From the NCBI GenBank assembly GCA_022563885.1, contig JADFMM010000030.1:1-33709 (forward strand): a DNA stretch of 33,709 nucleotides, given 5' to 3'. The translations under genes and the position numbers were made by a program. The DNA comes from Planctomycetota bacterium. GTDB lineage: Bacteria > Planctomycetota > Phycisphaerae > Sedimentisphaerales > Anaerobacaceae. Of the stretch, positions 2,488-32,834 are shown one piece after another; within the stretch, counting starts at the first letter, position 1, and the number at the start of each line of letters is the position of its first letter. Below the pieces are notes generated by a model, which saw nothing but the letters and a program-made list of their open reading frames with translations, made no database searches and had not been told where the DNA came from.

Positions 2488-2505
2488 GGTGTCTGTGTCG
2501 GCCTT

Positions 2506-5343
2506 TCAGTAGAGCCCAATAGCAGCGTCGCTGGCCAATACGGTGATGGCAACTTGGGACCAGGCTGCATGCTCGGTAGGATTGAGGGTTTCATCGCGTT
2601 TTGCGTCCCCGCTCGATAGCAGCGCCAGGGCATCTCCTTGCGCGTCCGCGTAGCGCGTCCGCAGGGTCTGGAGTAGCTGGGTGCAGGCGGCCCGTTCCCG
2701 TTGAGAGGGAGTACGGCAGGTCAAGAGCATGAACAGTTGGTTCAGGCGTTCGCTGTCGTTGCTGCCCGCCCGCATGAGGCGTTCGGCCAGCATGCGTGCC
2801 ATCTCGAGACGCTGGGTCTCGTTGAGGAGTCCCAACGACTGCAAGACCGTGTTGGTCCGCGATCGTTTCACGCAACTGGCCTCACGGCTCGGGGCGTCGA
2901 ACAAGGTCATCATGGGGTGGGGGCTGGTCCGTTTCCAGTAGACATAGAGGCTGCGGCGATAGAGGCGTTGGCCATGGTCACGGATGTAGCGCTTGGTATT
3001 GCTGGCCGGGTGAGCCATGGCCATCCACATGCCGGCGGGTTGGTAAGGTTTCACGCCCTCCCCGCCCATATGGGGGTCGAGCAGGCCGCTGGCCCATAGG
3101 CCCATGTCGCGCAGAACCTCGGCGTCGAGGCGGTGACTCGGCCCGCGGGCCAGGAGGCGGTTCTCAGGGTCGTCGACATCACCGCGCCTGGCGGAGCTTT
3201 GGCGAAAGGTTTTGCTGGTCACCATCAGACGCAGCATATGTTTCATGTCCCACGCGCTTTCGTGCAGTTCAACGGCGAGCCAGTCCAACAGCTCAGGATG
3301 AGTAGGCTGTTGGCCCTGGAGGCCGAAGTCCTCGGGGGTGCGGACGAGGCCTTCGCCAAAGGTGCGTTGCCAGATCTGGTTGACGAGCACGCGTGCGACC
3401 AGGGGGTGTTCACGGGCGGTGAGCCAACGGGCCAATCCCAGTCTGTTGCGCGGAGCGTCTTCGGGGAATTGCCCCAAGACGGTGAGGATCCCGGGCTTGA
3501 GCGGTTCGCCGGTGGGGAGATTGTATTCGCCCCGCTGCAAGATCCGAGTGGTGCGTGGTTCTTTCCGATCCCTGGCCACCAGGCTGGTGGTGAAGGTACT
3601 CGTCGCCCTGGCGATGCGCTGCGCCAGGGTGCGGGCCTGCCTGTGCAATAGCAGATGTCCGAGCGGACCGCGCGGGTCCGCCAACATCAACAACCGATCG
3701 CGCTGGCTGCACAGGTTCCAGTCTTTGGTGCCGGCCATGGCCTGCCAGGGATTCTCTAAGTGCGCCTCAATGGGGGTTCCTTTTTTCGGCCCCACCATTT
3801 TCACTCGGACCCGATGTGAGCCCTTGGGCAGGACCAGTTCGATGCGGCTGGTTTGCTGCCGTGGCGAGGCTTCGGTCTCCGACGGGACGGGGGTGTCGTC
3901 CACCGTCACCTCCGAGCCCGGGCCACCGGAATAGACCAGCCAGAGGACCTGATCCACTGGAACGTCGATCTCGAACGAGAGCCAGACCGCCTTGTCGCTG
4001 GCGGGGAGGTGATTCTTCCGGATGCCGGGCAGCCCGCCGGCTTTGTCCCATTGCTTTTTCTCGTTGTCCGGCGGCGGGGCGTCCGCGTCCACCGTCTTGC
4101 TGATGCGCCACTCGCCCGTTTTCCAATCGGTTCTCTCTTTGGCATGCGCTGTGAGGGTGAGTATTCTCTCCTCGACCTGCACCGCAGCCCCGCTGAGTAG
4201 CTCGTCCATCTCCGACTCGAGAGCGCACCACCGATTCCAGGCGGACTGATCCTCCGGTGCCTTGATCACGGGGCCGTAGGTGTAGGAATTTCCGTCCAAG
4301 GCACTTTCCTCGGTGTTGTTGAAGAAGGCCAGGAGACGATAGTACTCGGTCTGGGGGATGGGATCGTACTTGTGGGTGTGACAGCGGGCACAGGTCAGGG
4401 ACATGCCGAGGAAGACCGTTCCGAAGTTTTCGGTGCGGTCGAAACTATTTTTGGCCTGGAACTCTTCCGGGATCGCGCCGCCCTCCGATGTGGTCGGGTT
4501 CATACGCACGAAGCCGCTGGCCACCTGCTGCGCCAGGCTGGCGCCGGGGATGAGGTCGCCTGCCAGTTGCCAGGTGATGAACTCGTCCAGAGGCAGGTTG
4601 TCATTGAATGCGCGAACGACCCAGTCGCGGTAGGGATAAATGCCGCGGCGATTGTCGAGGTGAAGGCCATGCGTGTCACCATAGCGGACGGCATCGAGCC
4701 AGTAGCGGGCCTGATGCTCTCCGAGCCGCGGGTTTGATAATAGTTGGTCGACGAGGCGTTCGTAAGCATCTTTGCGCTTGTCGGCGAGGAAGGTGGAGAG
4801 TTGCTCGGGCTCCGGCGGCAGGCCTGTCAGGACCAGGGCGGCGCGACGGGCCAGTGTGGCGCGACCGGCTTCGGGTGCGAAAGTGAGTTGTTTTTCCTCC
4901 AGCTTTGCCAGGACGAAAGCATCAATGCCCATTTTCATCGGATGTTTTCGTGGCGGGATGAAGGCCCAATGTTTGGCGTAGTGGCCGCCCTCACCTATCC
5001 AGCGGCTGATAAGCTCGCGTTCGTGGTCAGAGAGTTTCTTCTGCGAAGTCTGGGGGGGCATCGGGTCCAAGGCGTCGTGGATGCGGGCCAACATCTCGCT
5101 CTTTTCCGGATGATCCGTATCGATCGCCCGGTAGCCGCCGAGGTCACGGGTGGCGCCTCGGTAAGAGTCGAGCCGCAGTAGCTCCTTTTTCTTGGCATCG
5201 GGCCCGTGGCAGACGAAACACTTATTCGAGAGGATGGGAAGAATCTGGCGTGCGAAGTCTACCCCGGTGGCGTGAAGGCGTCCGGAAGCCCCGCTGACAG
5301 CCAGGGTGATCAAGAGGATGCTTCGTCTGGTTTTGAACTTCAT
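2506..5343 (-). CDS. Planctomycete cytochrome protein (PSCyt1-DUF1549-DUF1553)
   Basis: This 945-residue exported protein has a Sec signal peptide (residues 1-26, KFKTRRSILLITLAVSGASG). An N-terminal cytochrome-c-like PSCyt1 domain carries the haem motif CFVCH at 42-46. DUF1549 follows (about 135-345; ARYWLDAVRYGDTHG at 212-226) and contains a second CxxCH, CARCHTHKYDP at 318-328. The middle (about 405-525) is a beta-rich linker. DUF1553 (about 615-900) shows LARWLTAREHPLVARVLVNQ and PEDFGL. It is probably a periplasmic c-type cytochrome whose substrate is unknown; members are always found near DUF1501 proteins. It is the first gene of a two-gene operon. A GGAG sits 10 bases before the ATG. 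Haem attachment would depend on a maturation system such as resB-ccsA in this window. Confidence 0.94.
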   Translation of the reverse strand: MKFKTRRSILLITLAVSGASGRLHATGVDFARQILPILSNKCFVCHGPDAKKKELLRLDSYRGATRDLGGYRAIDTDHPEKSEMLARIHDALDPMPPQTSQKKLSDHERELISRWIGEGGHYAKHWAFIPPRKHPMKMGIDAFVLAKLEEKQLTFAPEAGRATLARRAALVLTGLPPEPEQLSTFLADKRKDAYERLVDQLLSNPRLGEHQARYWLDAVRYGDTHGLHLDNRRGIYPYRDWVVRAFNDNLPLDEFITWQLAGDLIPGASLAQQVASGFVRMNPTTSEGGAIPEEFQAKNSFDRTENFGTVFLGMSLTCARCHTHKYDPIPQTEYYRLLAFFNNTEESALDGNSYTYGPVIKAPEDQSAWNRWCALESEMDELLSGAAVQVEERILTLTAHAKERTDWKTGEWRISKTVDADAPPPDNEKKQWDKAGGLPGIRKNHLPASDKAVWLSFEIDVPVDQVLWLVYSGGPGSEVTVDDTPVPSETEASPRQQTSRIELVLPKGSHRVRVKMVGPKKGTPIEAHLENPWQAMAGTKDWNLCSQRDRLLMLADPRGPLGHLLLHRQARTLAQRIARATSTFTTSLVARDRKEPRTTRILQRGEYNLPTGEPLKPGILTVLGQFPEDAPRNRLGLARWLTAREHPLVARVLVNQIWQRTFGEGLVRTPEDFGLQGQQPTHPELLDWLAVELHESAWDMKHMLRLMVTSKTFRQSSARRGDVDDPENRLLARGPSHRLDAEVLRDMGLWASGLLDPHMGGEGVKPYQPAGMWMAMAHPASNTKRYIRDHGQRLYRRSLYVYWKRTSPHPMMTLFDAPSREASCVKRSRTNTVLQSLGLLNETQRLEMARMLAERLMRAGSNDSERLNQLFMLLTCRTPSQRERAACTQLLQTLRTRYADAQGDALALLSSGDAKRDETLNPTEHAAWSQVAITVLASDAAIGLY

Positions 5344-8905: not shown

Positions 8906-9358
8906 ATGCAGTGCCCCGCCTGTGGACGTGAGCTTGTTTCGAAAATCGTGAATGAATTGGCTGTGGACGTGTGCGAGGGAGGATGCGGGGGGGTGTGGTT
9001 CAATTGGTCGGAGGTGATCCGGTCGAACGGGCTCCTGCCGTCACCGGCAGAGCAGCAGTTGGTGGTGGCCCGCGACGAACAAATCGTGATCGACCATTCT
9101 CGTCGTTATCGCTGTCCCCACTGTGAAAACATCGCCATGTCACGCGACTTTTCGTCAGTCTTACCCGATCTCCTATTGAATGACTGCCCCAGTTGCGGGG
9201 GATTCTGGCTCAATGGCGACGAGGTCGACGAGATTCCCCACCATGCGATCCCTCGGCCCGAAGAAGGTGGGAGGCAACCGAACGAGTCCCGCGCGCATCG
9301 CGTGATTCAGGCGATTCATCGGCTCTGTCCCGCGTCCTGTGTGGGCGGCCTGCTCTAA
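8906..9358 (+). CDS. Double zinc-ribbon protein (zf-TFIIB type)
   Basis: This 150-residue protein has two copies of the TFIIB-like zinc ribbon. The first has CPACG (3-7) and CEGGCGGVWFNWSEV (23-37). The second has CPHC (about 70-73) and CPSCGGFWLNGDEVDE (about 95-110). The CGGxWxxxxE ending of each repeat is the hallmark of the family. It should bind two zinc ions; a nucleic-acid or scaffold role is possible but unproven. The final 40 residues are polar and not conserved in any way I can name. GAGGA lies about nine bases before the ATG. It is a lone gene facing the DUF1501 operon tail. Confidence 0.85.
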   Translation: MQCPACGRELVSKIVNELAVDVCEGGCGGVWFNWSEVIRSNGLLPSPAEQQLVVARDEQIVIDHSRRYRCPHCENIAMSRDFSSVLPDLLLNDCPSCGGFWLNGDEVDEIPHHAIPRPEEGGRQPNESRAHRVIQAIHRLCPASCVGGLL

Positions 9359-9413: not shown

Positions 9414-10778
9414 TCACGCCAGAAAACTGAGCAGTCTGAAATCGCTCGGATAGGCCAAGGCCGCCTCTGAATACCCCGGTATTACCATGTCAAGCAGGGC
9501 ACGGTCGTTGCCAAAGTGATTCATGAAGATCTCGCCCAGGACGGCCCGGTAGTCAGTCTTGCGATCGACATAGCGATCGCGCGAGCTGAACATGTCGCCG
9601 TCGGCCCAGGTCGTGCTGTCACAGTTGTAGACGCCCCCGCGCACGGCCCCTCCTGCCACAAACATCACGCATGCCTTACCATGATCGGTCCCGGCGCTGC
9701 CGTTTTCCCGAGAGGTCCGGCCAAATTCGGTCAAGGTCACGATGATCAACTTGTCCCACTGATCCTGTAGATCGCGATAGAGGGCCTGAAAGCCCTGCGC
9801 CACCTGGGCCAGCAGGTCCCCCTGCCGGCCGTAAATCTGTCCCTGGTTGGTGTGGTTGTCCCACCCGCCAATATTGATGCCCAGCACGCGGATTGGCGTA
9901 CGTTTCATCAGCATGGCCGCGTCGGCGCAGTGCTGTCCAAATCGACCATTGGGGTAGACGGCGCCCCCGGAGGGCTCATAGCGGCCTTGGGCCATGGCTT
10001 CCTGTACGATGCTCATCGCGTCAGTCAGGGCGAGTCCGGTGTTGTAGACGAGGTCGCGGTAGTTCTTGCCGAGATGGTCGCGCGGTCCCCCATAGGCCCC
10101 CAGCAGGCCGGAGCCGTCCGGTCCTCCCTCCAGGGTGGGCAGATTCCCGATGAACTTCTGTACCTTGGCCGCGCTGCCGGAGAAGGTAAAGCGAGCCGGA
10201 TCGTTGATCGTCGCCATCGGCAGGGGGCCCTTCAAGGAGACCATTTGGGACCCTGACAGGGCCGCGGCAGCGAGGCGGTTCTCCGTTGGATTCATGGTGA
10301 GGGCGACCTGACGGTACATCATGCCCTCCTCAAAGCTGGGATCTCCGGGCACACCGTTTTCCCAGTACTGCTGACCATCGAAATGGGATTGAGATTGCTT
10401 GCTATAGCCCACCCGATGGATGACCGCCAGGTTCCCCGGTCCCGGCTGGCCATTGAGATCTTGGCGGTTGTAGATCTCCATCATGGGCCCAAGCCGTGGA
10501 TTTAGACCGGCAAAACCGTTGCCCAGATTGAGACTGCTCGCATCGGGAATGAAGAGGGTGGGCCTAGTGGTCGTGTTGTACTCGGAGTCCCCATAGGGGA
10601 TCACCGTGTTGACGGCATCGTTGCCGCCCCGCTGGAAGATGAAGACGAGTTTGGTGTCATCACCGGGAGAGGCGGCCAGCAGGCTCCGTCTCAGGAGGAC
10701 CGGTGCCGTCAGGTTGAGACCCAGGCCGAAGGCCGTCAGGCCCCCCGCTCTCAGAAAGTCGCGTCGATTCCAATGCAT
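9414..10778 (-). CDS. DUF1501 family protein (DUF1800 partner), Tat-exported
   Basis: This 454-residue DUF1501 protein belongs to the subgroup found beside DUF1800 genes. The N-terminus MHWNRRDFLRAGGLTAFGLG carries the twin-arginine export motif (RRDFLR, 5-10). Family motifs are QRGGNDAVNTVIPYGD at 49-64, GGWDNHTNQG at 304-313, TEFGRTSREN at 350-359, TDHGKACVMFVAGGAV at 364-379 and a C-terminal GYSEAALAYP. It differs clearly from the DUF1501 protein at 985-2487, so the two are old paralogues. GAGG lies eight bases before the ATG, and the gene follows the DUF1800 gene by 51 bp in the same direction. DUF1800 and DUF1501 are a well-known conserved pair of unknown function, probably in the envelope or exported. 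Confidence 0.93.
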   Translation of the reverse strand: MHWNRRDFLRAGGLTAFGLGLNLTAPVLLRRSLLAASPGDDTKLVFIFQRGGNDAVNTVIPYGDSEYNTTTRPTLFIPDASSLNLGNGFAGLNPRLGPMMEIYNRQDLNGQPGPGNLAVIHRVGYSKQSQSHFDGQQYWENGVPGDPSFEEGMMYRQVALTMNPTENRLAAAALSGSQMVSLKGPLPMATINDPARFTFSGSAAKVQKFIGNLPTLEGGPDGSGLLGAYGGPRDHLGKNYRDLVYNTGLALTDAMSIVQEAMAQGRYEPSGGAVYPNGRFGQHCADAAMLMKRTPIRVLGINIGGWDNHTNQGQIYGRQGDLLAQVAQGFQALYRDLQDQWDKLIIVTLTEFGRTSRENGSAGTDHGKACVMFVAGGAVRGGVYNCDSTTWADGDMFSSRDRYVDRKTDYRAVLGEIFMNHFGNDRALLDMVIPGYSEAALAYPSDFRLLSFLA

Positions 10779-10829
10779 CGCAATGCCTCATTCCTTGGGT
10801 GGAGGTTTCATGTGTCTCGGTTCTTCAGT

Positions 10830-13694
10830 TTATTGAAACTGCCACTGAGGCAGACTCAGGATCAGACCCACACAGGACTGCACTTTCTCCTCAAATGCCG
10901 CCAGTTTGCGACGATTGTAACGATCCAGGGGCTCCGGGGCGCCGCTATCGTTCGTGTTGAGGAACTCCAGCAATAGTTCCCGATTTGGCGCGGAGAGTTC
11001 GCCCTGAAAGAGCAGCGTATCGAAATAATCGACGACATCCTCCGCGGTTACCAGGCCATTGTTGTCCACCGTCGCCCAGATGTCCCAGCCAAACTGGCTG
11101 GCCTTGTTTTCTGCCAGAGACTTCGCGAACTCGATGCGATTCAGCATGGAGGCCGTGTCCATCCAGTCAAAGCCCAACTCTGAGAATCCGTCGGGATCAT
11201 CTCGCTTGAAGAGGTCCATGCCCATGCCACGGTTCAGCTCCGGCAAACCCGCGCCGGTGGCGTCAGATTCGAGCGCTCGCAGACTGCTGTTGATGAACTC
11301 AATCGCCGTTTTGACCTTGGAGCGGTAGGCGCGCGGCGACCAAAAGACACCGGCCTGATCGCTCGGATCGAGCAACGTTCGCATGACGGTCTCGATATGG
11401 CCGGGCGGCGCAGTAGATCCCCAGGCAACTATCGCCGCATCGACGAGGTCAAGCAACTCTGCGGGGGCACTGCGGTCCTTGAAACTCGTCAGCGTCACCT
11501 CGTCCGAGACGAAACGCTGAACCAACTTGATACAGATGTACTCCTTGGTGGAAGGATGGTTCGCCAAGGCTTGGACGACCACCAGCGTGTCCTCCAGGCC
11601 ATCTGCCGCCGCGCCCTCCCCGGACCTGGCGGGAAGCCTGATTTCGTGTTCGGTGCCCCCGAACAACACTTTTGCCCCGGTATCGTGCAGTTCCGGATCG
11701 AAACGAAAGACCCAAGTGCCATTGCGGTCTCCATGTTCAATGCTGCCCGGCAAGATCCTGCGTTCAATCAATCTCGGTGCGATGGTCAGGTCGGAACTCC
11801 CCAGGTTCACGTTGTGGGCCTGTAGGGCGAGTACGTTTTCACCCGGCCGCAAGAGACTCAGGAAGCGGTTCAGGTTGATATAGTCTGCCCCCTCGCTGGC
11901 CTCATGGCCTCCGTCTGTGCGCTGATCGAAAGCCGGTGGTGTGCCCTGGCCCTTCATTGTTTCACTGCGAGCCACCTCCGTGCCGTTGAGGTAGGCCACG
12001 TAACCGTCGTCATAGCGAACCTCCAGCAGCAGCAGGTTTTCGAACTGGTCGGGGTCCTCAACAACAAAGGAGCGTCGCAGGTAGACCGACAGATACTGGT
12101 TCCTCATGTCCATCAATACCGTGGCATCGTCCCCATCACCATACCCGATTCCCGTGCTGCCTCGGGACCAACCGGAAGCGTCAAACCCCAATTGGGTCCA
12201 CTCCGTCGTGGGGCTGTCCCCGGCCGGGCTTGGCTCGCGTCTGCCTTTGAAGTAACGCCAGCGGGGGCCCAGATCGAGCCAGGCATCGTCGACGAATTGT
12301 ACACCGCAGCGGGTCGGCGGGGTCAGGGCCGCTGCGGGGAAGGGCAGCGCCTGATCGGGAAAGACCTTGCACACCGTCCAGCCCGTAAAGCACATGGCCA
12401 GTTCCTCGATATCCTTCTGCGTGTAGCGGTTGTCGACGCCGAAGGCGAAGAGTTCCAGTATTTCCCGGGAATAGTTCTCATTGGCGGCGCCCTTGACGTT
12501 GAGCACGTTGTCCAGATAGATCAGCATGGTCGGACTGGTGGCACTGTAGAGCAACAGGTCCCCGAAATACCCCAACGCGTTGTCATAGAAGAACTGATAC
12601 TCCTGGTATTCTGCGTGAGCAGCCTCGGACTCGGCTTGACCGCGGGGCATGGCGTCCGTGGCATCCGAATCCGTCAACTCGTCGAAGTAGTCGACCAGTT
12701 TGTCGTAGTCCGTCGTGAAGTGATTCTCCCAGAACTCGGCCAGCACGGTCTGGAGCTGACGGTCCGTATGGACGCCCCGCACATGGACCAGTTGCTGCAG
12801 GGCATCGACGTCGCGGATCACACGCAACGGTGGCCCGGGGAGCAGTATGCGGTTGATGAGTTCGGGGATCATGCTCAGGTCGCTGCTGGTCAGGTTGCGG
12901 TTGTGCACTTCGATGGCCAAGACATTCGCCCCTTCGCGTAGCAGCCCCAGGAAGGGGCTAAGATCAAACTCTTCCGGCGTCCCCGCCTCATGACTACCGT
13001 TTGCGGCGGTCTGGTACGTGATGGTTCCCGAGGGCAGGTTTGCATTGGCCACCTGCCGACCATTCAAATAGGCCCGGAAGCCGTCATCATAGTCGACCCG
13101 CAGCAATAGCTGGTTTATCTCGGCGAGCGCCTCGGCGCTCAGCTGAATGGTCTGTCGGAGATAGACCGATAGATATTGGTTCTGCATATCATCCAATACC
13201 GTGGCGTCGTCGTCGTCGCCGTAGCCAATCCCCGTGGCCCCCAAGGACCAATGGGCATCGCGGTATCTCCTCTTCTGCCAACCCTCGCCCGGAGCCCTGA
13301 CGCCCTTTACGTAACGCCACAGCGTGCCAGCGGCGATCAGGACGTCCTCGCGGGCGGCCACCTTTTCCACAAACAACGCGTCCTCCAACTCCTGCAGGAG
13401 CGGTGGGACACCAGCGGCCAAGTCAGCGGGACCGAGTTGCTCTTCCAGGTAGGCCTCGACCCCCATGGCCTGGACCCGAGCCAAATCGGCAGGGGAAGGG
13501 CCATACGCGACCCGGTTGAGCACGTGTCCGGCCTTCGTCAAAGGATCTTGAGGCGCCTCAGCGGCCTCAACGGCGGCCAGGGCCAGAAGAAAACATGCCA
13601 GCAAGGAAAACGCTCTCAAACTGGGATGGCGAGGCCTGCTCCACGCCGGCTTCCGCGCAAGCGGGCCACCCGTGGACACAGCATCCGTAGACAT
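10830..13694 (-). CDS. DUF1800 protein with two inserted beta-sandwich-like domains
   Basis: The protein has 954 residues, roughly twice the usual DUF1800 length. An upstream in-frame extension of 57 codons is rejected for three reasons: a signal peptide (LRAFSLLACFLLALAAVEAA, about 26-45) fits the ATG at 13694, AAAGG precedes that ATG, and a promoter lies inside the extension. DUF1800 signatures are KAGHVLNRVAYGPSPADL (54-71), FWENHFTTDY (321-330), ANENYSREILELFAFGVD (404-421) and YTQKDIEELAMCFTGWT (424-440). Two homologous inserts break the domain: about 122-288 and 478-650. Both contain GIGYGDxDDATVLxDM, NQYLSVYLR, a VRYDDGYVAYLNG-like strand and a GxNVLAxxxHNxNLxSSDL ending. They resemble galactose-binding-like jelly rolls. 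No CxxCH motif is present. The likely location is periplasmic or on the cell surface. Confidence 0.92.
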   Translation of the reverse strand: MSTDAVSTGGPLARKPAWSRPRHPSLRAFSLLACFLLALAAVEAAEAPQDPLTKAGHVLNRVAYGPSPADLARVQAMGVEAYLEEQLGPADLAAGVPPLLQELEDALFVEKVAAREDVLIAAGTLWRYVKGVRAPGEGWQKRRYRDAHWSLGATGIGYGDDDDATVLDDMQNQYLSVYLRQTIQLSAEALAEINQLLLRVDYDDGFRAYLNGRQVANANLPSGTITYQTAANGSHEAGTPEEFDLSPFLGLLREGANVLAIEVHNRNLTSSDLSMIPELINRILLPGPPLRVIRDVDALQQLVHVRGVHTDRQLQTVLAEFWENHFTTDYDKLVDYFDELTDSDATDAMPRGQAESEAAHAEYQEYQFFYDNALGYFGDLLLYSATSPTMLIYLDNVLNVKGAANENYSREILELFAFGVDNRYTQKDIEELAMCFTGWTVCKVFPDQALPFPAAALTPPTRCGVQFVDDAWLDLGPRWRYFKGRREPSPAGDSPTTEWTQLGFDASGWSRGSTGIGYGDGDDATVLMDMRNQYLSVYLRRSFVVEDPDQFENLLLLEVRYDDGYVAYLNGTEVARSETMKGQGTPPAFDQRTDGGHEASEGADYINLNRFLSLLRPGENVLALQAHNVNLGSSDLTIAPRLIERRILPGSIEHGDRNGTWVFRFDPELHDTGAKVLFGGTEHEIRLPARSGEGAAADGLEDTLVVVQALANHPSTKEYICIKLVQRFVSDEVTLTSFKDRSAPAELLDLVDAAIVAWGSTAPPGHIETVMRTLLDPSDQAGVFWSPRAYRSKVKTAIEFINSSLRALESDATGAGLPELNRGMGMDLFKRDDPDGFSELGFDWMDTASMLNRIEFAKSLAENKASQFGWDIWATVDNNGLVTAEDVVDYFDTLLFQGELSAPNRELLLEFLNTNDSGAPEPLDRYNRRKLAAFEEKVQSCVGLILSLPQWQFQ

Positions 13695-13772
13695 CGAAGC
13701 GCCTTTCCGCAAGTAAAACTCTTTCCCATTGCGACCAACGTGCTTGGTCTCCATGTCAAATGAAGGTCGCCT

Positions 13773-13802
13773 AATATACCACATTGGGATGAGGGACCGC
13801 AA
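13773..13802 (-). promoter_or_regulatory. Extended -10 promoter for the DUF1800-DUF1501 operon
   Basis: On the minus strand TTGCGG (13802-13797) is followed by an 18-base spacer and then TATATT (13778-13773). TGG directly before the hexamer gives the extended -10 TGn motif. The start codon at 13694 would lie about 70 bases downstream of transcription start. Confidence 0.5.
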
Positions 13803-14236
13803 GTGTTTTGAGGGGCACACAGAGCCAAGGAGCCAAGCAGGGCATCTCAATGGTGATCTGAGCATGTCTAGAAGTAGATGGCTGAGGCTGGGGTTTTATT
13901 TGAGAGCCAAGCCTGGGTGCAGGATGCCGTCTGTTCGCCCTTTCGCATAGGGACCTGTCCCTCTGACTTTTCGAACATCGCTCTTCGCAAGCCGCCGTGG
14001 CGAAACCTAACAGACACGATTCCGACCAACCATGGCACATTTTAGCCTTGAGTCGTCTTTTCCCTTATGCCATAATTGCTCTGGGTCAAAATCTACACAA
14101 TGGAATCGGGCAGTCAAAGAGCTGTACCAGACGCATCCTTGGCGCCCAGAGTTTCCTAAGTAGTTTGGACTTAATGTGTTACAGGGACGGCAGGTCAATC
14201 AACCTGCTCAATCCTTGAAAGGCCTATCGGAATTCA
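13803..14236. other. Divergent intergenic region before resB
   Basis: About 430 bp with no supported gene between the DUF1800 promoter and resB. It holds a short palindrome, GGGACCTGTCCC, near 13950. Short open frames here lack ribosome sites and family features. No tRNA, riboswitch or convincing promoter for resB could be identified. Confidence 0.5.
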
Positions 14237-21131: not shown

Positions 21132-24100
21132 TTAAAGGGGGGGGTATATTGAGTCCAATCGTATCTGAACGACCGGGCGTGTAGGATTTAGGGCGAGAAT
21201 GTCATTGGATTCTATGGTGACTTGCGCTTGCCCCGCTTTGAACTCTGGGTGCAGCACGTGCAAGCTGTACTCGCCCACCGGAGCAATGAAGATGATTTCC
21301 GAGCCTGTTCTCAAAAGGGGCTCAATCTGCCCTGTGATGTCTTCCAGCCAGGCAATGGCCGAGGGCAGTGGTAACCCATCTTGACCGGCAACGTACACGC
21401 TGAGCAGACCTTGCCCCGTGGTGATCCAGTTGGAGGCGTCCAGGTCAAGTTTCAGAGCCTCTCCCTCGGCCAAATGGAACTCGGCCAGGGGCGCAGTGTC
21501 CCCCAGGGTGGCATTGCCAATAAAGTAGTCGCCGGCGGGAAGGGTGTTGACCTGGTAGGAACCGTCACGACCGGCGATGTCGACAAGCAGTGTCTGTGCT
21601 CGGTTAAAGAGGACCAGCGCTTGTTCCAATCTGGCTTCAAGCTTGCCGCCGACCCATGCGGTCCCTGAGAGGAGCTTGAGGTCAAGGGCATGCATGAACC
21701 GTTCGGGTGTGACATCCACGGGCTGGCGGATCGTCATGAATCCATCGGCCCGTCTGGCCACCACATGGTAGAGCCCGGCGGGCACCCGATGGATGATGTA
21801 GGGCGCCCCCAACCCTTGGGGTGGCTCAACCTCACCGATCATCTGGCCCTGCAATCCACTGCCTTCCTGCAAATAGACGGTCCAGTCGCCGACGTTCCGT
21901 TGTCCGTTTGACAGCAGGGTGACCTGCAGCTCGTGCAGTTGTTTCGGCAAGATGCCCAACGTAATCGGCCGGTGTCCGACATCGACCGTTTCCACCTTGG
22001 TCCACCGGCTGGCGCTGTTCGGGCGACGATAGATCCCATAGCGCCCCACCGGGATGCCATTGAACAGAAAGGCCCCATTGCCGTCGGTTTGGGCAAAGCA
22101 CTGGAAGGCCTTAGAATGGGGTGTCTCAGGATCGCCCAGAAGAATCCTCTGGTCAGCCACGGGCAGGCCGTCCCACTGTAGGATGCCCATCACCGCGGGG
22201 CCAACCCCAAAGTCGACGCGTGTCGTCTGTCCATCGCTGGGGATGACGCTCCGTCGAACGACGCCGGTATTTCTGTGGGGATTCCGTCGATAGACAAAAC
22301 ACAGTTCAGGCGGCAAGCCCTGGATGCGATAATAGCCCTCTTCATTGGTGACGGCCGTGCCCAGTTGTCCGACCACGTCTTCATCGACCAGCCCGTCATC
22401 GGCAATGATAATGGCATTGTTCACGGGTAGACCGTCCTGATTGAGGATGTAGCCTTCGATTGTACCGCCGGGGTACAAGGCCAGCTGTCCCAGGTTGGTC
22501 GTCAATTCGTCTACCACATCTCTGACGGTGATGATGACGGATCCGAACTCAGCATGGGAGATTCGTACTTTGTGATGTCCCGGCGGGACATGGGAGAGGG
22601 TAAATGTTCCGCCCGTCGTTTGGGTCGCACGTTTATCTCTGACAGCCGTGGCACTTGGGTGGTTGTAGGCGCCGGGGAGCAGAGTCACATCCGCACCGGA
22701 TACTGGGTGGCCACTCGCATTGACAACACTACCCACGATCCGGCCGCCCCGTTGTAACTTGATCAAGAGGGGGTCGCTCTGGGTGTCGATGACTTGCTCC
22801 AGCGTGACGGGCACATATCCCTCTGCTGTGAAGCGAAGACTGTAGGTGCCCGGACCGCTGGATATGATACTGAACTCGTCGTTGACGTCGACGAATCTGT
22901 GGACGGTCGGCGATTCTGCAACGACGGTCATCCCGGGCAGATAGAGTTTCTTCCTAAGCGATACGGTGTAGTTCGCGATCAATTCCCGGGTGTTGGTCTG
23001 TACGACATAGCCCTGAATAAAGGGAACTTCGGTATAGACCAAGGGAACCGTCAGGTCGTCACTGGGGGCATTGACGTTCGTCACGGTCAATTCTTGGACA
23101 TTCGCTCCATGGAAGAACAGCGCGTAGGGTCCCGGCTCCAACCCATTGATTGTGAAGGTCTCCAGGTCGTCCCCCCTCAGGGTCTGTTTCTGGAGACCCC
23201 AGTCACTATAGGCGAGCAAGTCCACGTAGTCCGGCCTGGCGTTACTGGCCCATTGGATCTGCCCGTGGATCGTTGCCAAGGATTGCGGTGATCGTTGCGG
23301 CAGTGTCAGAGTCAGCAGTCCGCCGTCTTTCAACGGTAATTTCACCTGGGCTACTTCCAGCGACGAACGCGAGAGGTCATCGTGACCCGTCATGGCGTAA
23401 ACCGAATAGGTGTCGGGCGTGACATGCGCCAAGGAGAAATCACCCGCCGGTCCCACTCGATGGCCCTGTGGGGGCTGGCTGCTGTGCCACCACTGGGGTT
23501 TCACATAGATCTCAACCCCGGCAGCGGGAACGCCATCTGCGTAGGCCGCGTAGCCAGGAATGGCCTGGCCCTCTTGCATGATCATACTGACTGGTGTCAC
23601 CGCGTCGACATCATCGCAGAGGACAGTCGCCTGTTGCGGTGCGAAGTCGGGATGCAGCGCGGTCACCCTATAGGCGATGTCGGAAGCCGCCAGTGTGCTC
23701 AGGACGGCGAAGCCCTTCTGATCGGTGGTTGCGGGCCGTCCGGCCCCCTTGGTTTGCTCAGAGCCCAGCCAACTGGCTGCCAAGCGAACGTCCTGGATCG
23801 GCTGTCCTGATGCGTCGGTGACGTTGACCTCGACCAAGCATCCGCGTTCCAAGGCAAAGTGGCGAATGATGGGTTCGTTTTGGCTGAGCGACACGATGGG
23901 CAGATCCGCCAGGGACGCGTCCATCAGATAGCCCAGTCGAGAGATCTTTATCTGGTAGCGGCCGTCTCGCTCAACATGCTCGAAGCAATAATAGCCGTTG
24001 GCATCTGTCAGGGCATAGTAGCGGGTGTCGCCGAAGACCTCGATCTCGACATCCCGTAGGGCATGGCCCGTCAGACGATCCGTCACCAGTCCACAGAGGA

Positions 24101-24797
24101 GGCCCTTGATCTCTTGCTGGGCGGCTTGCAGTTGAGCATCTTTGAGCGAGCTAACTGGGTCGGTCGAACCGGCAAGTTCAGTTGAGTCACCAGCATCGGT
24201 TGCCTGGATGCGTCTGCTGATGGCATCAAGGGCAACCTGGTAGGGGTTCTGATCTTCTAACTCGCTCTCTTGGCTCGCAAAGCGCTCAAGCGTCGCAATG
24301 GCACTGGCGTCGCCCATCTGCCCCAGGTGCTGGGCAATGAGGACGTTATTCTCCGGACCAGCGCCCTCCATCAACGCCAGCAGACCGGTGACGTCTCCCC
24401 GGGCGGCGAGGGACTCGATCTTCTCCCGTCGCAGCACCGCAGCAATCGCCTGCGCAGTGGGCTGCTCGACTTTTTCAGTGCTGGCCAGCGCCGGGGGATG
24501 AGATTCCAGTTGGGGCGGCTCAGATCTGCCGTAACGATGCCACAGTGCCCAACCCAGCGTCATGGTGAGAAAGACAAGGGCCGCCACCGCGGCCTTGAAG
24601 GCAGGCTGAGCGAAGAGTTTGATGGTCCGGGGGGGGGAGGAGGTCTCGCCGTCCAAGTCACCCGCTTGCGTCTGAGCCTGAGCCAATAGGGCCTGCCGAG
24701 CCTTGTTCAACGCCCGTTCCGTCGCTTCCGGACTGGGCTTGATGCGGGAGATCATCTCCAGTTGACGCAGGAGGTCTCTGTCTTCGGGCTGAGACAT
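21132..24797 (-). CDS. Giant single-pass membrane protein with carboxypeptidase-regulatory-like repeats
   Basis: A 1221-residue protein with three parts. The cytoplasmic N-terminus (1-66) begins MSQPEDRDLLRQLEMISRIK. One membrane helix follows (67-86, FKAAVAALVFLTMTLGWALW). After a helical spacer rich in Ala/Glu (about 95-225), the protein has about 990 extracytoplasmic residues of tandem beta-sandwich domains of the CarboxypepD_reg type. Examples are CGLVTDRLTGHALRDVEIEV, GGRIVGSVVNASGHPVSGAD and GGTIEGYILNQDGLPVNNAI, each followed by a TxxxGxYxxxxLPPG-like strand. The start overlaps the sigma factor stop by one base (TAATG), so translation is coupled. A likely role is membrane anti-sigma factor or sensor for that sigma factor. 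No zinc anti-sigma motif (HxxxCxxC) is visible in the N-terminus. Confidence 0.88.
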   Translation of the reverse strand: MSQPEDRDLLRQLEMISRIKPSPEATERALNKARQALLAQAQTQAGDLDGETSSPPRTIKLFAQPAFKAAVAALVFLTMTLGWALWHRYGRSEPPQLESHPPALASTEKVEQPTAQAIAAVLRREKIESLAARGDVTGLLALMEGAGPENNVLIAQHLGQMGDASAIATLERFASQESELEDQNPYQVALDAISRRIQATDAGDSTELAGSTDPVSSLKDAQLQAAQQEIKGLLCGLVTDRLTGHALRDVEIEVFGDTRYYALTDANGYYCFEHVERDGRYQIKISRLGYLMDASLADLPIVSLSQNEPIIRHFALERGCLVEVNVTDASGQPIQDVRLAASWLGSEQTKGAGRPATTDQKGFAVLSTLAASDIAYRVTALHPDFAPQQATVLCDDVDAVTPVSMIMQEGQAIPGYAAYADGVPAAGVEIYVKPQWWHSSQPPQGHRVGPAGDFSLAHVTPDTYSVYAMTGHDDLSRSSLEVAQVKLPLKDGGLLTLTLPQRSPQSLATIHGQIQWASNARPDYVDLLAYSDWGLQKQTLRGDDLETFTINGLEPGPYALFFHGANVQELTVTNVNAPSDDLTVPLVYTEVPFIQGYVVQTNTRELIANYTVSLRKKLYLPGMTVVAESPTVHRFVDVNDEFSIISSGPGTYSLRFTAEGYVPVTLEQVIDTQSDPLLIKLQRGGRIVGSVVNASGHPVSGADVTLLPGAYNHPSATAVRDKRATQTTGGTFTLSHVPPGHHKVRISHAEFGSVIITVRDVVDELTTNLGQLALYPGGTIEGYILNQDGLPVNNAIIIADDGLVDEDVVGQLGTAVTNEEGYYRIQGLPPELCFVYRRNPHRNTGVVRRSVIPSDGQTTRVDFGVGPAVMGILQWDGLPVADQRILLGDPETPHSKAFQCFAQTDGNGAFLFNGIPVGRYGIYRRPNSASRWTKVETVDVGHRPITLGILPKQLHELQVTLLSNGQRNVGDWTVYLQEGSGLQGQMIGEVEPPQGLGAPYIIHRVPAGLYHVVARRADGFMTIRQPVDVTPERFMHALDLKLLSGTAWVGGKLEARLEQALVLFNRAQTLLVDIAGRDGSYQVNTLPAGDYFIGNATLGDTAPLAEFHLAEGEALKLDLDASNWITTGQGLLSVYVAGQDGLPLPSAIAWLEDITGQIEPLLRTGSEIIFIAPVGEYSLHVLHPEFKAGQAQVTIESNDILALNPTRPVVQIRLDSIYPPL

Positions 24798-25324
24798 TAT
24801 GACTGACCCCCACCGTCAGCCTTCACTTGCACCTTGGAACAGATCTCCCTGACACGGGCCAGGGACCGCGACGCCAAGGCACGCACGTGATGGGGGGTCT
24901 TGTCGGTCTCCGTGGCGATCTGCTCAAAAGAACGCTGCTCAATATAGCGCAGCACGAAGACTTGGCGCTGAAGCTTGCTCAAGTTTTCCGCGGCATCGAG
25001 GACGGCCTTGACTTGTTCGTTTTCTACCAGATGGGACAGCACGCTCTTGCCGTCGGCGACCGCGTCGATCAGGTCGTCCGAACAGGTGGTGAGTCGTTTC
25101 TCCCGCCGCCGCCAGTCGAAGGCCAAATTCATGGCACAGGTCCTGGCATAGGCAGCCAGATTGTCCACCTGGTCCAGCCTCTCCGAGCCTGATAATTTAA
25201 TAAACAGATCCTGCATCAAGTCCTCAGCGACATCTTCACGGAGCGTCAGTCTGGTCAGAAGAGCGTGCAGGCTGGGTCCTTGCCGATCCAGCAGGCTTAG
25301 GAGTGTTTCCATACTAGTCTGCAA
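24797..25324 (-). CDS. ECF-family RNA polymerase sigma factor
   Basis: A 175-residue sigma-70 factor of the extracytoplasmic-function type. Region 2 (about 28-78) has EDVAEDLMQDLFIKL and LAAYARTCAMNLAFDWRRRE, which recognise the -10 element and core polymerase. Region 4 (about 115-165) has LSKLQRQVFVLRYIEQRSFE followed by QIATETDKTPHHVRALASRS, the helix-turn-helix for the -35. Regions 1 and 3 are absent, as usual. The TTG at 25324 has a good GGGGA site eight bases upstream; an ATG four codons later (25312) is the alternative. The gene is coupled to the giant membrane protein. Its target promoters and signal cannot be read from the sequence. Confidence 0.95.
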   Translation of the reverse strand: MQTSMETLLSLLDRQGPSLHALLTRLTLREDVAEDLMQDLFIKLSGSERLDQVDNLAAYARTCAMNLAFDWRRREKRLTTCSDDLIDAVADGKSVLSHLVENEQVKAVLDAAENLSKLQRQVFVLRYIEQRSFEQIATETDKTPHHVRALASRSLARVREICSKVQVKADGGGQS

Positions 25325-25623
25325 AGAGCCTATTCCCCTACTTACGCTCGTCTACTCCAATGACTATCGACGCAGTGCAGGCGCAACGCTAATTCTTGGG
25401 TCCGTAGCAATAAAAGATGAATCGACGCCATCTTAGCCGGCCGAATCCGGCCGGGCCATCAAAAAAGGGGCGGTCTTGCTCAAAACGATGATAGGCTAAA
25501 TAGTTTAACTATAATGAGTTGTGTCGATCGACGCGGATTTTAAAATGAGTCAAGTGGGAATGAGAAAAGGGGGAGTTGCAGGTAACGTAGTCGACACAAA
25601 AGTGTCATAGCAGCTCTCACGCC
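25325..25623. other. Intergenic region upstream of the ECF sigma gene
   Basis: About 300 bp without a supported gene. It contains a GC-rich hairpin: CCGGCCG (25437-25443) pairs with CGGCCGG (25448-25454) around an AATC loop, with no T-run on either strand in terminator position. A plus-strand TATAAT occurs at 25510-25515 without a matching -35. A small GACAC/GTGTC hairpin near 25593-25608 follows the PEP-module gene but is not followed by T residues. Confidence 0.5.
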
Positions 25624-28756: not shown

Positions 28757-30094
28757 TTAGGCCTTGAAGATCTGGTCGAGATTGCCTTTGCTGTCCGCGA
28801 ACCTTTCGGTGGGAACATCCAAGGCGTTTAGCATGCTGACAAATAGATTGGACAGGTTTTCCTTGTTCTCGTCGAACTTCATGTAGCGCCCGTGCTTCAG
28901 CCCCATGTTCTTGCCGCCCGCCAGGATGAGCGGGTAGTTCCGGGCATTGTGATAGGTGCTGTTGCTGCTGCCGTAAAAGACCAGGGTGTTGTCCAGGAGC
29001 GGTCCGTGTTCATCCTTTGCGTCGGTCAGACGCTGGAGCAGATAGTCCAGCTGCTCGATCAGGAAGCGGTCGTAGGTCGCCCATTCCTTGTAGTTCTTCT
29101 CGCTCTTACCGTGCGACATCCCGTGATGATCGGGAAACCCAAAGAGGACAGTCGAGAACTTGGAGCCGAGGCCCAGGTTGTCCTCGCGCACCAGCATGTA
29201 GTTCGCCACCCGCGTGATGTCCGTCTCGAAGCCCAGTACCATGAGATCGCACATGCTGCGGATATATTCCTTGGGCGACTTCAGGGTCACCGACAGGTCC
29301 AGGTGGGAAGAGTCGAACTTCTTCATCGGTATATTCTGCCAGGCCTCGAGCCGCTCGATCCGGGCTTCCAGGTCTCGCAGGGTCGCCATGTACTCGTCCA
29401 GCTTCTGCTGATCTGCCTTTCCAAGATTCTTCTTGAGCCGCCTGGAATCCTGCAGCACCAGATCCACCACACGGCGCTTCTTCTGAAGCTCGATCTTCCG
29501 AGCCTTCAGACTCTTCGCGTTGTCGATCTGGAAGAGGCGCTCGAAGATCCCGCGCACGTCGTTCTCGGCGGGGATGGGCTGGCCGTTCCGGTCAAAGGCC
29601 AGGGTGGTGGCCCGGCCGCGGTAGCCGGTGCCGCCGTCCGTCGACAGGTTCATGTATGAATACCGGGTCTCGTCCTTGTAATGCTCGGCCACCACCTGGT
29701 CCAGGGAAATCGTATTGCGATACTCACCGCCCACATTAGCGCCGGTGAGCCAGCTGTCGCCGGCGGTGTGGCCCAGCAGAGGACGGGATTTCGGGTGGGA
29801 CAGCCCGCCGAAAATGGTGAATTGGTCGCGTTTCGCCTTCAGCGGTTCCATGACCTTGGTCATTTTGTAGTCACTTCCGGCTGCGTGCGGGAACCAATGC
29901 CAGTCGTCACGGATTTTGGTGAACTTCTTATGGGGCAGGCTGACACCGTTGCCCACGTACAGGTTCAAGAGCCGTCGCGGCTGCGTTGTTTGTCCGGTGG
30001 TCTTGGCCATGGCCTCGAAGAAAGGCAGGCAGCAGCACACGCCCATGCCCTTCAGCATGGTTCGCCGATCGAGATGCCACGGTTTATCGTTCAC
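28757..30094 (-). CDS. DUF1552 family protein, Tat-type signal
   Basis: A 445-residue DUF1552 protein, a distant relative of the DUF1501 group. The N-terminus has a twin-arginine-like signal, LDRRTMLKGMGVCCCLPFFE (8-27), with a CCC run unusual for the h-region. Family features are LLNLYVGNGVSLP (about 42-54), GGLSHPKSRPLLGHTAGDSW (about 96-115), FGFPDHHGMSHG (about 319-330), LDNTLVFYGSSNSTYHNARN (about 371-390) and NLSNLFVSMLNALDV near the C-terminus. The gene starts nine bp after the DUF1592-type gene, its usual operon partner. The function is unknown; the motif spacing suggests the same hydrolase-like fold as DUF1501. Confidence 0.92.
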   Translation of the reverse strand: MNDKPWHLDRRTMLKGMGVCCCLPFFEAMAKTTGQTTQPRRLLNLYVGNGVSLPHKKFTKIRDDWHWFPHAAGSDYKMTKVMEPLKAKRDQFTIFGGLSHPKSRPLLGHTAGDSWLTGANVGGEYRNTISLDQVVAEHYKDETRYSYMNLSTDGGTGYRGRATTLAFDRNGQPIPAENDVRGIFERLFQIDNAKSLKARKIELQKKRRVVDLVLQDSRRLKKNLGKADQQKLDEYMATLRDLEARIERLEAWQNIPMKKFDSSHLDLSVTLKSPKEYIRSMCDLMVLGFETDITRVANYMLVREDNLGLGSKFSTVLFGFPDHHGMSHGKSEKNYKEWATYDRFLIEQLDYLLQRLTDAKDEHGPLLDNTLVFYGSSNSTYHNARNYPLILAGGKNMGLKHGRYMKFDENKENLSNLFVSMLNALDVPTERFADSKGNLDQIFKA

Positions 30095-30103
30095 AACACG
30101 CTC

Positions 30104-32647
30104 CTATTTCCCGGAGAACAAGGGGCTGGTGATCATCGCCCGAAGTAGCCCCTGTAATCTATGGTTGTCTTTTTCAACTTGTTTGACAATTTCATCGATG
30201 GCGGCCCGGTCCGTAAACGACAGGGATCGACCCAGTGCGTAGCGGAGCAGGTGCTGGACCAGCGCCCGAGTGAACTGCTCGTTCTTCTCGTTGAGAATAT
30301 ACTGCTTCAGGGCGTCAACACCGTCAAGCGTCTTGCCGCTGGGCAAGGTGGCCTCGGCGGCGCCGTCCCGGTGCGTCCACAGCCCCACCGCATTGTAGTT
30401 CTCAAGCAGCAGCCCCCAGGGATCCACCTTGCTGTGACAGTCGACACAGGACGGGTTCTCCCGGTGCCGCTTCAGTTGCTCCTTAATAGAGAGCTTGGCG
30501 ACGGCCGGGTCGTCCTCGTCGATCCGCGGCACATTGGGCGGCGGCGGTGGCGGCGGGTCGTCCAGGATACGGCTGATCAGCCATGCCCCACGTTTGATGG
30601 GGTGTGGCTCCTTACCATTGGAGTTGCCGGTGAGGAAAAGGCCCTGAGAAATCAGCCCGCCCCGCTTGGCGTCATCGGCGAGGGTCACCTTTCGGAACTG
30701 CCCGCCCTTGACATTGTTAATGCCGTAAAACTGCGCGAGGTTCTGGTTAAGCATGGTGAAGTCGGCGTCCACCAGATTCATGATGCTCATGTCCTTGTGC
30801 AGGACTTCGGCAAAGAACAGGCGGGTTTCCCTGAGCATGTCGTCTCGGACGAAACGGTTGAAGCGCGGGAACTTCCGAACATCCACTTTGGTGTGCGTCA
30901 TCTTCTCCATCTGCAACCATTGCTCGCAGAAGGCAGTGACAAAGTCCCCCGACCTCGGGTCCTTGATCATGCGATCTATCTCAGCCGGCAGCTTGTCTCG
31001 GAGTTGCTTCTGCTCAGCGAGCTTTAAAAGCCGGTCGTCGGGCATGGAGTTCCAGAGGAAATACGACAGTCGGCTGGCCAGCTGATGCTCGGTGATGGTG
31101 TTCGGTGCCGCAGCAGGCGGGGCCGGGGACTCGACGAGATACAGGAAGTTCGGCGAGCACAGCACACTGACCAGGGTTTCTCGGATGCTCTGCTCGAAGC
31201 TCGCGCAGTCCGGGCGCAGGGATTTCCACAGCCCGTGGTAGGCGTCAACCTCTTCACGGGTCGCCGGGCGCCGGAACGCTCTGTTCATGAAGTTCTGGAT
31301 GACTTCTCGGCTGTACACCGCTTCTGTGCCGCTGTGCTTCGACGCGATAAGAATGTGCTTCTGACTGGCCGGCGGCCAGGCACCCACGTGGCCACATTCG
31401 AATTCCATTGACTTGACGATGATGGCCGGGCCCTTGACCGACTCGTCTCTCGCCATGGCGTCGTTCCAGACACCCACGACGATCATGGTGGCTATGTCCT
31501 TTTTCTCCGGGTCGTAGATCGGGACGGGGAAATTCTCGAGGCGGCCGCGAAATTCTATGGTCTGGAACTTGTCGAGGGTGCCTGTGACCTTGACCGAGCG
31601 TTCAAGGGTTTCGTAGTCCTCGCCATGGTCGAGCCACTCGCCGATGCAGGCCCGGAGGTAGGGCGACGCTTCATTCTTGGCGTCGGCCCGGGCCACTTTC
31701 ACACGCAGCACGAAATCGCCTTCCATCGGGAAATCCCGCAGGTGCAGTTTCAGGCTGGGCATGGGCGTGAGCCAGATAAAATCGCCACGCTCCACATGGG
31801 GGATTGCGGGCTTAAGCAGGACCCCGTCCTGCTCGATACTGAAACGCTTGTTTCGCGCGCCGCGCAGATCGGGGTAGCTGCGTTGCCCAAAGTCGTTCAC
31901 CACAAAAGCACTGGCCGCCGTTCCCACATGGCGGTTCTCCGAGGTCACCACCGTGTGGTCTCGGGTCGATACCGGGACTTCTCGGGCGCCTGACTTCCTG
32001 TCGTCTTTAGGCCTGGGGTCTTTGTTGATCCCGGAGCCGAACTTGAAGCTATAGCGATAGGACACAGGCGGGGTGTCGGTGATGATGGCCTTCTTCAAGG
32101 CGCGCTCGGCGATGGTCATGAAATACTCGGTCTGCAGCAGGGAAATGACCTGCTCCTCACCGTTGTTCTTGAAGCCGTCAACAGACAAGCCATCGGGCGG
32201 TAGGTCCTGGCCGAAATTCAGGTCCAGTTTTAACAGATCCCGAAGTGAGTTGGTGTATTGCTCCTTAGTGAGTCGACGCATCACGACGCGCACGTCTTTT
32301 CGCTTGAGTTCAGCGGCTTCCTTAAGGGACGCGGTCAGCCAGTTCACCAATGCCCGGCGTTCGCTGTCCTTTGGCCGCCTCTTCGCCTTCTTCGGCGGCA
32401 TGTCGCCGAGGTTCAACTGGTCCAGCACCAATTGCCAGGTTTCAGCATCCTTACCGTGAACGATGTCCGGATCCAGCTTGTCGAAGCGGATGTCGCCTTT
32501 CTGCTTCTCCTTACCGTGGCAGTCGGCACAGTATTTGGCAAATATCGGCTGGATTGTATTCGGGAATCCGGCGTCGGACTCGCCCAATACCGCAGTCGCA
32601 GTAAGAGCCAAAAGCGCCAGGACAGGCAAGCCCCGGCCCCTGTTCAT
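30104..32647 (-). CDS. DUF1592-type planctomycete cytochrome protein
   Basis: An 847-residue exported protein (signal peptide MNRGRGLPVLALLALTATAV at the chosen start). The upstream in-frame codon at 32674 would add nine residues. Domains in order: PSCyt1 with CADCHGKEKQKG (40-51), DUF1587 (PPDGLSVDGFKNNGEEQVIS), a beta-rich middle, DUF1595 (RAFRRPATREEVDAYHGL), DUF1592 (LASRLSYFLWNSMPDDRLLK), DUF1588 (RGGLISQGLFLTGNSNGKEP and RILDDPPPPPPPNVP) with a second haem motif, CVDCHSKVDPWG, and DUF1585 (LLRYALGRSLSFTDRAAIDE). It is probably a dihaem c-type cytochrome in the periplasm or cell wall. It is the first gene of the operon with DUF1552. Confidence 0.94.
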   Translation of the reverse strand: MNRGRGLPVLALLALTATAVLGESDAGFPNTIQPIFAKYCADCHGKEKQKGDIRFDKLDPDIVHGKDAETWQLVLDQLNLGDMPPKKAKRRPKDSERRALVNWLTASLKEAAELKRKDVRVVMRRLTKEQYTNSLRDLLKLDLNFGQDLPPDGLSVDGFKNNGEEQVISLLQTEYFMTIAERALKKAIITDTPPVSYRYSFKFGSGINKDPRPKDDRKSGAREVPVSTRDHTVVTSENRHVGTAASAFVVNDFGQRSYPDLRGARNKRFSIEQDGVLLKPAIPHVERGDFIWLTPMPSLKLHLRDFPMEGDFVLRVKVARADAKNEASPYLRACIGEWLDHGEDYETLERSVKVTGTLDKFQTIEFRGRLENFPVPIYDPEKKDIATMIVVGVWNDAMARDESVKGPAIIVKSMEFECGHVGAWPPASQKHILIASKHSGTEAVYSREVIQNFMNRAFRRPATREEVDAYHGLWKSLRPDCASFEQSIRETLVSVLCSPNFLYLVESPAPPAAAPNTITEHQLASRLSYFLWNSMPDDRLLKLAEQKQLRDKLPAEIDRMIKDPRSGDFVTAFCEQWLQMEKMTHTKVDVRKFPRFNRFVRDDMLRETRLFFAEVLHKDMSIMNLVDADFTMLNQNLAQFYGINNVKGGQFRKVTLADDAKRGGLISQGLFLTGNSNGKEPHPIKRGAWLISRILDDPPPPPPPNVPRIDEDDPAVAKLSIKEQLKRHRENPSCVDCHSKVDPWGLLLENYNAVGLWTHRDGAAEATLPSGKTLDGVDALKQYILNEKNEQFTRALVQHLLRYALGRSLSFTDRAAIDEIVKQVEKDNHRLQGLLRAMITSPLFSGK

Positions 32648-32834
32648 AACCGCTATGTTCCTGCATTGAACCACGTTCTTGTCCTCGCACAGCAGGTCTA
32701 ATTGACCGGGCCCGGTGGGCCGAACTTGGTGTAAGCTTGCAAGAGCCTACCCGAAAACTCCAGTTTACGCCCGACAATCCTACCGTATCCCCCAGATACA
32801 CGCAGGTGGCGCAAAACCGAACCCCGGTAGTCGA

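Follow-up and report, generated by a model that had tools for sequence, protein, structure and literature searches.

A candidate sigma/anti-sigma operon in Planctomycetota with a constant inner segment and exchanged outside parts

Taken together, our analyses of the window (the whole 33,709-nucleotide stretch of DNA, contig C355 within a 6.5 Mb draft genome) suggest that an ECF sigma factor gene and the gene of a giant membrane protein directly behind it form a sigma/anti-sigma operon, in which a short two-helix membrane clamp carrying a large and swappable sensor would control an autoregulated sigma factor, a reading to which we give a probability of roughly 80%. Among named organisms, the locus has its nearest relatives in Planctomycetota, for the most part in Phycisphaerae/Sedimentisphaerales. 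Many ECF sigma factors of Planctomycetota lack an assigned regulator or target, and one subfamily now gains a predicted partner; the 42-residue segment of this partner is a marker by which it can be located in any genome, and the promoter sequence described below is directly testable.

The gene pair and its conservation

Both open reading frames of the pair named in the initial annotation, the sigma gene and the gene of the 1221-residue membrane protein, were confirmed, as was their one-base stop/start overlap, with base 24797 belonging to both frames in the junction sequence TCATAATG (Table 1). Pfam places Sigma70_r2 at residues 13-77 of the sigma factor (1e-9) and r4_2 at residues 107-157 (8e-10), both above cut-off, and with regions 2 and 4, a short linker and no region 3 the protein is an ECF (group IV) sigma factor. 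Its TTG start is supported by a near-identical sister locus, which has ACG at the position of the internal ATG of the window's gene.

Table 1. Positions of the features of the gene pair within the window
Feature	Position	Strand	Basis or remark
ECF sigma factor gene	24797-25324	minus	ORF, 175 aa, TTG start; Pfam, subfamily alignment
Giant membrane protein gene	21132-24797	minus	ORF, 1221 aa, ATG start; predicted anti-sigma factor
Stop/start overlap TAATG	24797..24797	minus	one base in both ORFs
N-terminal segment, residues 1-42, putative anti-sigma	24672..24797	minus	conserved across family; two predicted helices in relative
Single membrane helix, residues 67-85	24543..24599	minus	hydrophobicity, sole stretch of such kind
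Six-helix HEAT-like domain adjoining membrane, residues 115-229	24111..24455	minus	AlphaFold2 secondary structure; weak Pfam HEAT_2 in relatives
CarboxypepD_reg/transthyretin-like beta-sandwich rod, residues 234-1221	21135..24098	minus	Pfam, AlphaFold2, Foldseek
Predicted operon self-promoter	25360..25387	minus	GTTGCGC (-35) N15 AGTCAT (-10 region)

Close relatives of the sigma factor occur in many genomes of its family (41-94% identity, E<1e-32), and the other ECF sigma factors of the same genomes stand clearly apart from this subfamily (E>1e-12). A scan with the sigma alignment across bacterial and archaeal genomes found 71 loci. Downstream sequence of at least 150 nt was available for 64 distinct, intact sigma genes of the subfamily, and the next same-strand gene carried the segment motif (the first ~38 residues, consensus E..I..RL..IS.I.PS.EAT.RA..RVR..L) in 62 cases at E<0.01, the remaining two partners being visibly similar to it. 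At 25 control loci, which surround other ECF sigma genes in these and related genomes, the motif did not occur (best E 0.14).

The same relation was seen from the side of the segment. A 42-position segment profile run against 89 whole genomes of the taxonomic family gave 45 matches, every one of them directly downstream of a subfamily sigma gene, and of the 48 subfamily sigma matches in these genomes the three lacking the motif were contig-end pieces or had an unread base within it. Counted by genome, 38 possess both sigma and motif, 50 possess neither and one has a truncated sigma alone (Fisher p = 2e-24, a value that overstates the number of independent events, as the 89 genomes are related). 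Since the rows of the profile were built from such pairs, recovery of the seed rows is expected, and the result draws its weight from the lack of matches elsewhere and from the pairing of non-seed members as well. Genes further downstream, behind that of the predicted anti-sigma factor, show no conservation across genera, so the conserved unit comprises two genes. Sought in other genomes, the pair is thus conserved, with sigma and N-terminal segment co-occurring one to one, and its pairing is no accident.

Once past the motif and its membrane helix, partners differ greatly, in length between 134 and more than 1,200 residues, and while the N-terminus is common to all, grouping at E<1e-8 divides the outside parts into 13 sets. 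The largest group (20 members) is mixed, with LamG, DUF2092- and RseB-like hints; the second (18 members) consists of helical parts of ~200 residues, and a group of nine, the window's protein included, has CarboxypepD_reg domains. The constant inner segment is the part that one would expect to be in contact with the sigma factor. A more distant relative (L128:3100-6651) has a partner that ends in an outside thioredoxin/AhpC-like domain, possibly a redox sensor or an enzyme.

Architecture of the giant protein and its related arrays

The cytoplasmic part of the giant protein comprises 66 residues, and one hydrophobic stretch around residues 67-85 agrees with the single helix noted at the outset. 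The earlier figure of about 990 residues outside holds for the beta array (residues 234-1221), but the whole outside part amounts to about 1,130 residues, in which a helical domain (115-229) comes before the array. Six CarboxypepD_reg stretches were recognised by Pfam (1.7e-54), and an AlphaFold2 model of the array (8 sequences, pLDDT 75) shows the six-helix domain next to the membrane, followed almost only by beta sandwiches. Foldseek matched the array to tandem Ig-like rods, adhesins and pilins with low overall TM-scores, and this fold search returned tandem beta-sandwich rods only, with no hint of a ligand.

Homologous arrays are wired to other transducers in the same genome. On contig C55 (L192:3316-7371) a 1351-residue chain begins with regions 2 and 4 of a different ECF sigma factor and continues through membrane segments into a CarboxypepD_reg array of more than 1,000 residues, which is 30% identical to residues 187-1211 of the window's protein over 1,074 positions (E 1e-133), and contig C110 (L196:3384-7214) encodes another fusion of an ECF sigma factor to a CarboxypepD_reg array of more than 1,000 residues. 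On contig C241 a related array sits on an N-terminus with the zinc motif H-x3-C-x2-C, just downstream of a sigma gene, where zf-HC2 scores just under cut-off and an NCBIfam 'anti-sigma factor' model matches below threshold; on contig C21 a related array is carried by a fourth N-terminus behind its own sigma gene. In a sister genome zf-HC2 lies above cut-off (8.9e-8) in a 977-residue array protein that is again preceded by a sigma gene. The presence of a zinc anti-sigma domain at the equivalent place is the strongest hint from these comparisons that the window's protein is itself an anti-sigma factor. Through this exchange of arrays, one anti-sigma domain can inform on the role of another, and the distribution of related arrays over short clamp, zinc clamp and sigma fusion within a single genome illustrates the rewiring of outside sensing to transcription. 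We consider the chances about even that the segment represents a previously undescribed family of anti-sigma clamps in Planctomycetota, with the rod as a plug-in sensor that a single genome has connected to RNA polymerase by at least four routes (the short clamp, the zinc clamp and a further N-terminus, each with a separate sigma factor, and the direct sigma fusion).

Several further loci of this kind were noted. The C110 fusion chain ends with an AhpC/TSA-like domain. Contigs C307 (L195:3389-7277) and C44 (L197:3350-7155) of the same genome hold apparent sigma-array fusions, each in two overlapping frames, and the split may reflect assembly error, decay or frameshifting. In a sister genome two divergent sigma-array pairs stand back to back (L089:153-7154), one of them with a zinc anti-sigma N-terminus.

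Proposed mechanism and comparison with known anti-sigma systems

At present we would picture the pair as follows. The first ~42 residues would form a helical clamp by which the ECF sigma factor is kept on the cytoplasmic side of the membrane, as the strict pairing suggests; the single helix would span the membrane, placing the helical domain and the beta rod outside as a sensor or as a tether for a partner. A signal from outside, which for the rods could be surface polymers or cell contact, would most likely cause the anti-sigma protein to be cleaved, as happens in the RseA, RsgI and IutY systems, and so free the sigma factor, which would then read the motif GTTGCGC-N15/16-CGTCTATAAT found before its own operon and amplify its own synthesis. 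Across the family, the putative clamp and the sigma factor stay together and the outside part is exchanged.

Structural data on the segment come from a relative, L115, in which the sigma stop TGA is in frame with the partner, so that both can be read as one chain under NCBI table 4 (the window's two genes lie in different frames). The AlphaFold2 model of this joined chain, whose read-through linker is artificial, places segment helices at 179-190 and 197-226 with pLDDT 74-82 over most of the segment, and its sigma part is nearer to CnrY-, RsiW- and NepR-bound sigma chains than to RNAP-bound ones (4cxf_A, Z 12.8, rmsd 5.4 over 142). The model is weakly consistent with a two-helix clamp similar to class II. 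Co-variation between sigma and segment over 60 pairs gave no signal above shuffled pairs. The initial annotation had proposed a new type of anti-sigma factor, and of this the anti-sigma role gains support from the strict pairing and from the homologous arrays linked to zinc domains and sigma factors. As to novelty, the segment has no Pfam or NCBIfam match and a PDB sequence profile search reached a best E of only 0.15, with the low power of a 42-residue profile, yet its predicted two-helix shape resembles that of class II (CnrY).

For release of the sigma factor, regulated proteolysis is a common route in single-pass anti-sigma factors (PMC4598750; RsgI, PMC12203970; IutY, PMC8999054), and the main alternative is that the segment binds the sigma factor but the membrane helix passes the signal on by a conformational pull, a mode that has been proposed for CnrX/CnrY. 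In its favour, CnrY, to which a two-helix clamp bears resemblance, is presumed to let go of its sigma factor through a change of conformation (PMC4598750), and a long rod could transmit force. Considering that the genome encodes an M50 site-2 protease and that single-pass anti-sigma factors more often relay their signals by proteolysis (PMC4598750), we hold conformational release to be rather unlikely, if still a serious candidate.

The one-base overlap and the co-occurrence are also compatible with a co-expressed partner of any kind, such as an activator or a co-sensor, and the giant protein might be a co-activator or a membrane scaffold that the sigma factor needs and recruits through the N-terminal segment. 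The pairing data show partnership and not its sign, and some sigma C-terminal extensions are known to be required for activity (PMC8999054); however, related arrays carry a zinc anti-sigma domain in both the own and the sister genome, and a two-gene operon of a sigma factor and a single-pass protein is the standard anti-sigma layout, which makes such a role improbable. That the giant protein is a structural or adhesion protein of the surface, made together with its own sigma factor and with a segment that merely targets it to the membrane, would suit the adhesin, pilin and Ig rod matches and the frequency of such arrays in surface proteins, but we regard it as very improbable given an outside part that varies while the 42-residue inner segment is constant, and an inner segment that throughout the 89 genomes always accompanies the sigma gene.

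As a predicted anti-sigma factor, the giant protein shares with RsgI of the RsgI/SigI pairs of Clostridium thermocellum (PMC12203970) a short, here putative, sigma-binding N-terminus, one membrane helix and an adjacent sigma gene, as well as a large outside part, putatively the sensor, that differs between members as it does between RsgI paralogues (PMC12203970). Unlike SigI, however, the sigma factor is of the ECF type, and unlike in RsgI the outside part consists of CarboxypepD_reg-type rods in which no carbohydrate-binding module was recognised; Pfam matched no RsgI-type N-terminal domain in the window's protein, and no SigI assignment of the sigma factor was among the Pfam and NCBIfam matches listed. 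With class II CnrY (PMC7406223, PMC4598750) it has in common a short cytoplasmic segment, two helices (predicted in the L115 relative) and no zinc motif, although the 42-residue profile gave no credible sequence match to CnrY or NepR, and whereas CnrY uses the separate sensor CnrX, the putative sensor here is part of the same chain and exceeds 1,100 residues. By analogy, then, the pair would work like RsgI/SigI and, in the shape of its clamp, like CnrY, and we claim membership in neither.

In ECF52 proteins such as SCO4117 (PMC5826349) and in IutY (PMC8999054), the sigma factor, a membrane helix and a large outside domain are one signalling unit, as in the C55 sigma fusion; unlike in ECF52, the window's sigma factor and membrane part are two proteins, and ECF52 proteins, for which Actinobacteria are the only described source, contain a zinc domain together with a carbohydrate-binding module. 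Class I zinc anti-sigma factors of the RsrA type (PMC4598750) share the gene order and, as we infer, the role. Their H-x3-C-x2-C motif is absent from residues 1-66, which contain neither Cys nor His, in agreement with the first reading of the sequence, and with no zf-HC2 match by Pfam the window's protein is excluded from this class, unlike homologous arrays of its own genome that do carry the zinc domain. The zinc-free class I domain of the RseA type has about 100 residues and four helices, against 66 cytoplasmic residues here, ~42 of them conserved, and two helices predicted in the L115 relative; Pfam found no RseA-type domain in the window's protein.

A predicted self-promoter and the surroundings of the operon

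Upstream of the sigma genes the motif GTTGCGC-N15/16-CGTCTATAAT scored above the 99% level of shuffled sequence in 54 of 62 cases, mostly 22-50 nt before the sigma start. The window's copy, with 31 nt between the extended -10 and the sigma start, scores 15.7 against a 99.9% null of 13.3; its -10 (AGTCAT) is weaker and it is not among the strict sites. Across the 89 genomes the strict pattern has 33 sites and its reversed control 0; for 31 of the 33 a subfamily sigma gene is no more than 300 nt away, with the other two adjoining masked bases or a contig end. Positive autoregulation is common in ECF systems and has been treated for ECF52 (PMC5826349), and the motif, presumably used by this sigma factor, fits a positive autoregulation of the sigma operon. 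One strict site (G384 contig C1:1376629-1376658, L264) precedes a masked stretch whose first bases resemble another subfamily sigma gene.

In the genome that contains the window, a relaxed pattern gave 12 matches, compared with 3 for its reversal, and those besides the window site lie mostly inside genes or have no close downstream start, two of them being repeats of one coding stretch; with this pattern a wider regulon of the sigma factor was not found in its own genome. Two sites stand before genes of secreted proteins: an intergenic GTTGCGC-N15-AAGTCAT at C129:39238 (L255 around 9239-9266), 297 nt before the gene of a 781-residue secreted protein and a possible second target, and a relaxed GTTGCGC-N15-TGTCGA at C162:4036 (L260 around 4036-4063), 70 nt before that of a 442-residue predicted secreted protein.

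Elsewhere in the window we noted a fragment of a group II intron reverse transcriptase/maturase where the contig ends on the left (23-814) and neighbouring gene pairs for secreted proteins of planctomycete type, in which DUF1501 is paired with PSCyt1/PSD1 (985-5343), DUF1501 with DUF1800 (9414-13865) and DUF1552 with PSD/PSCyt (28757-32674).
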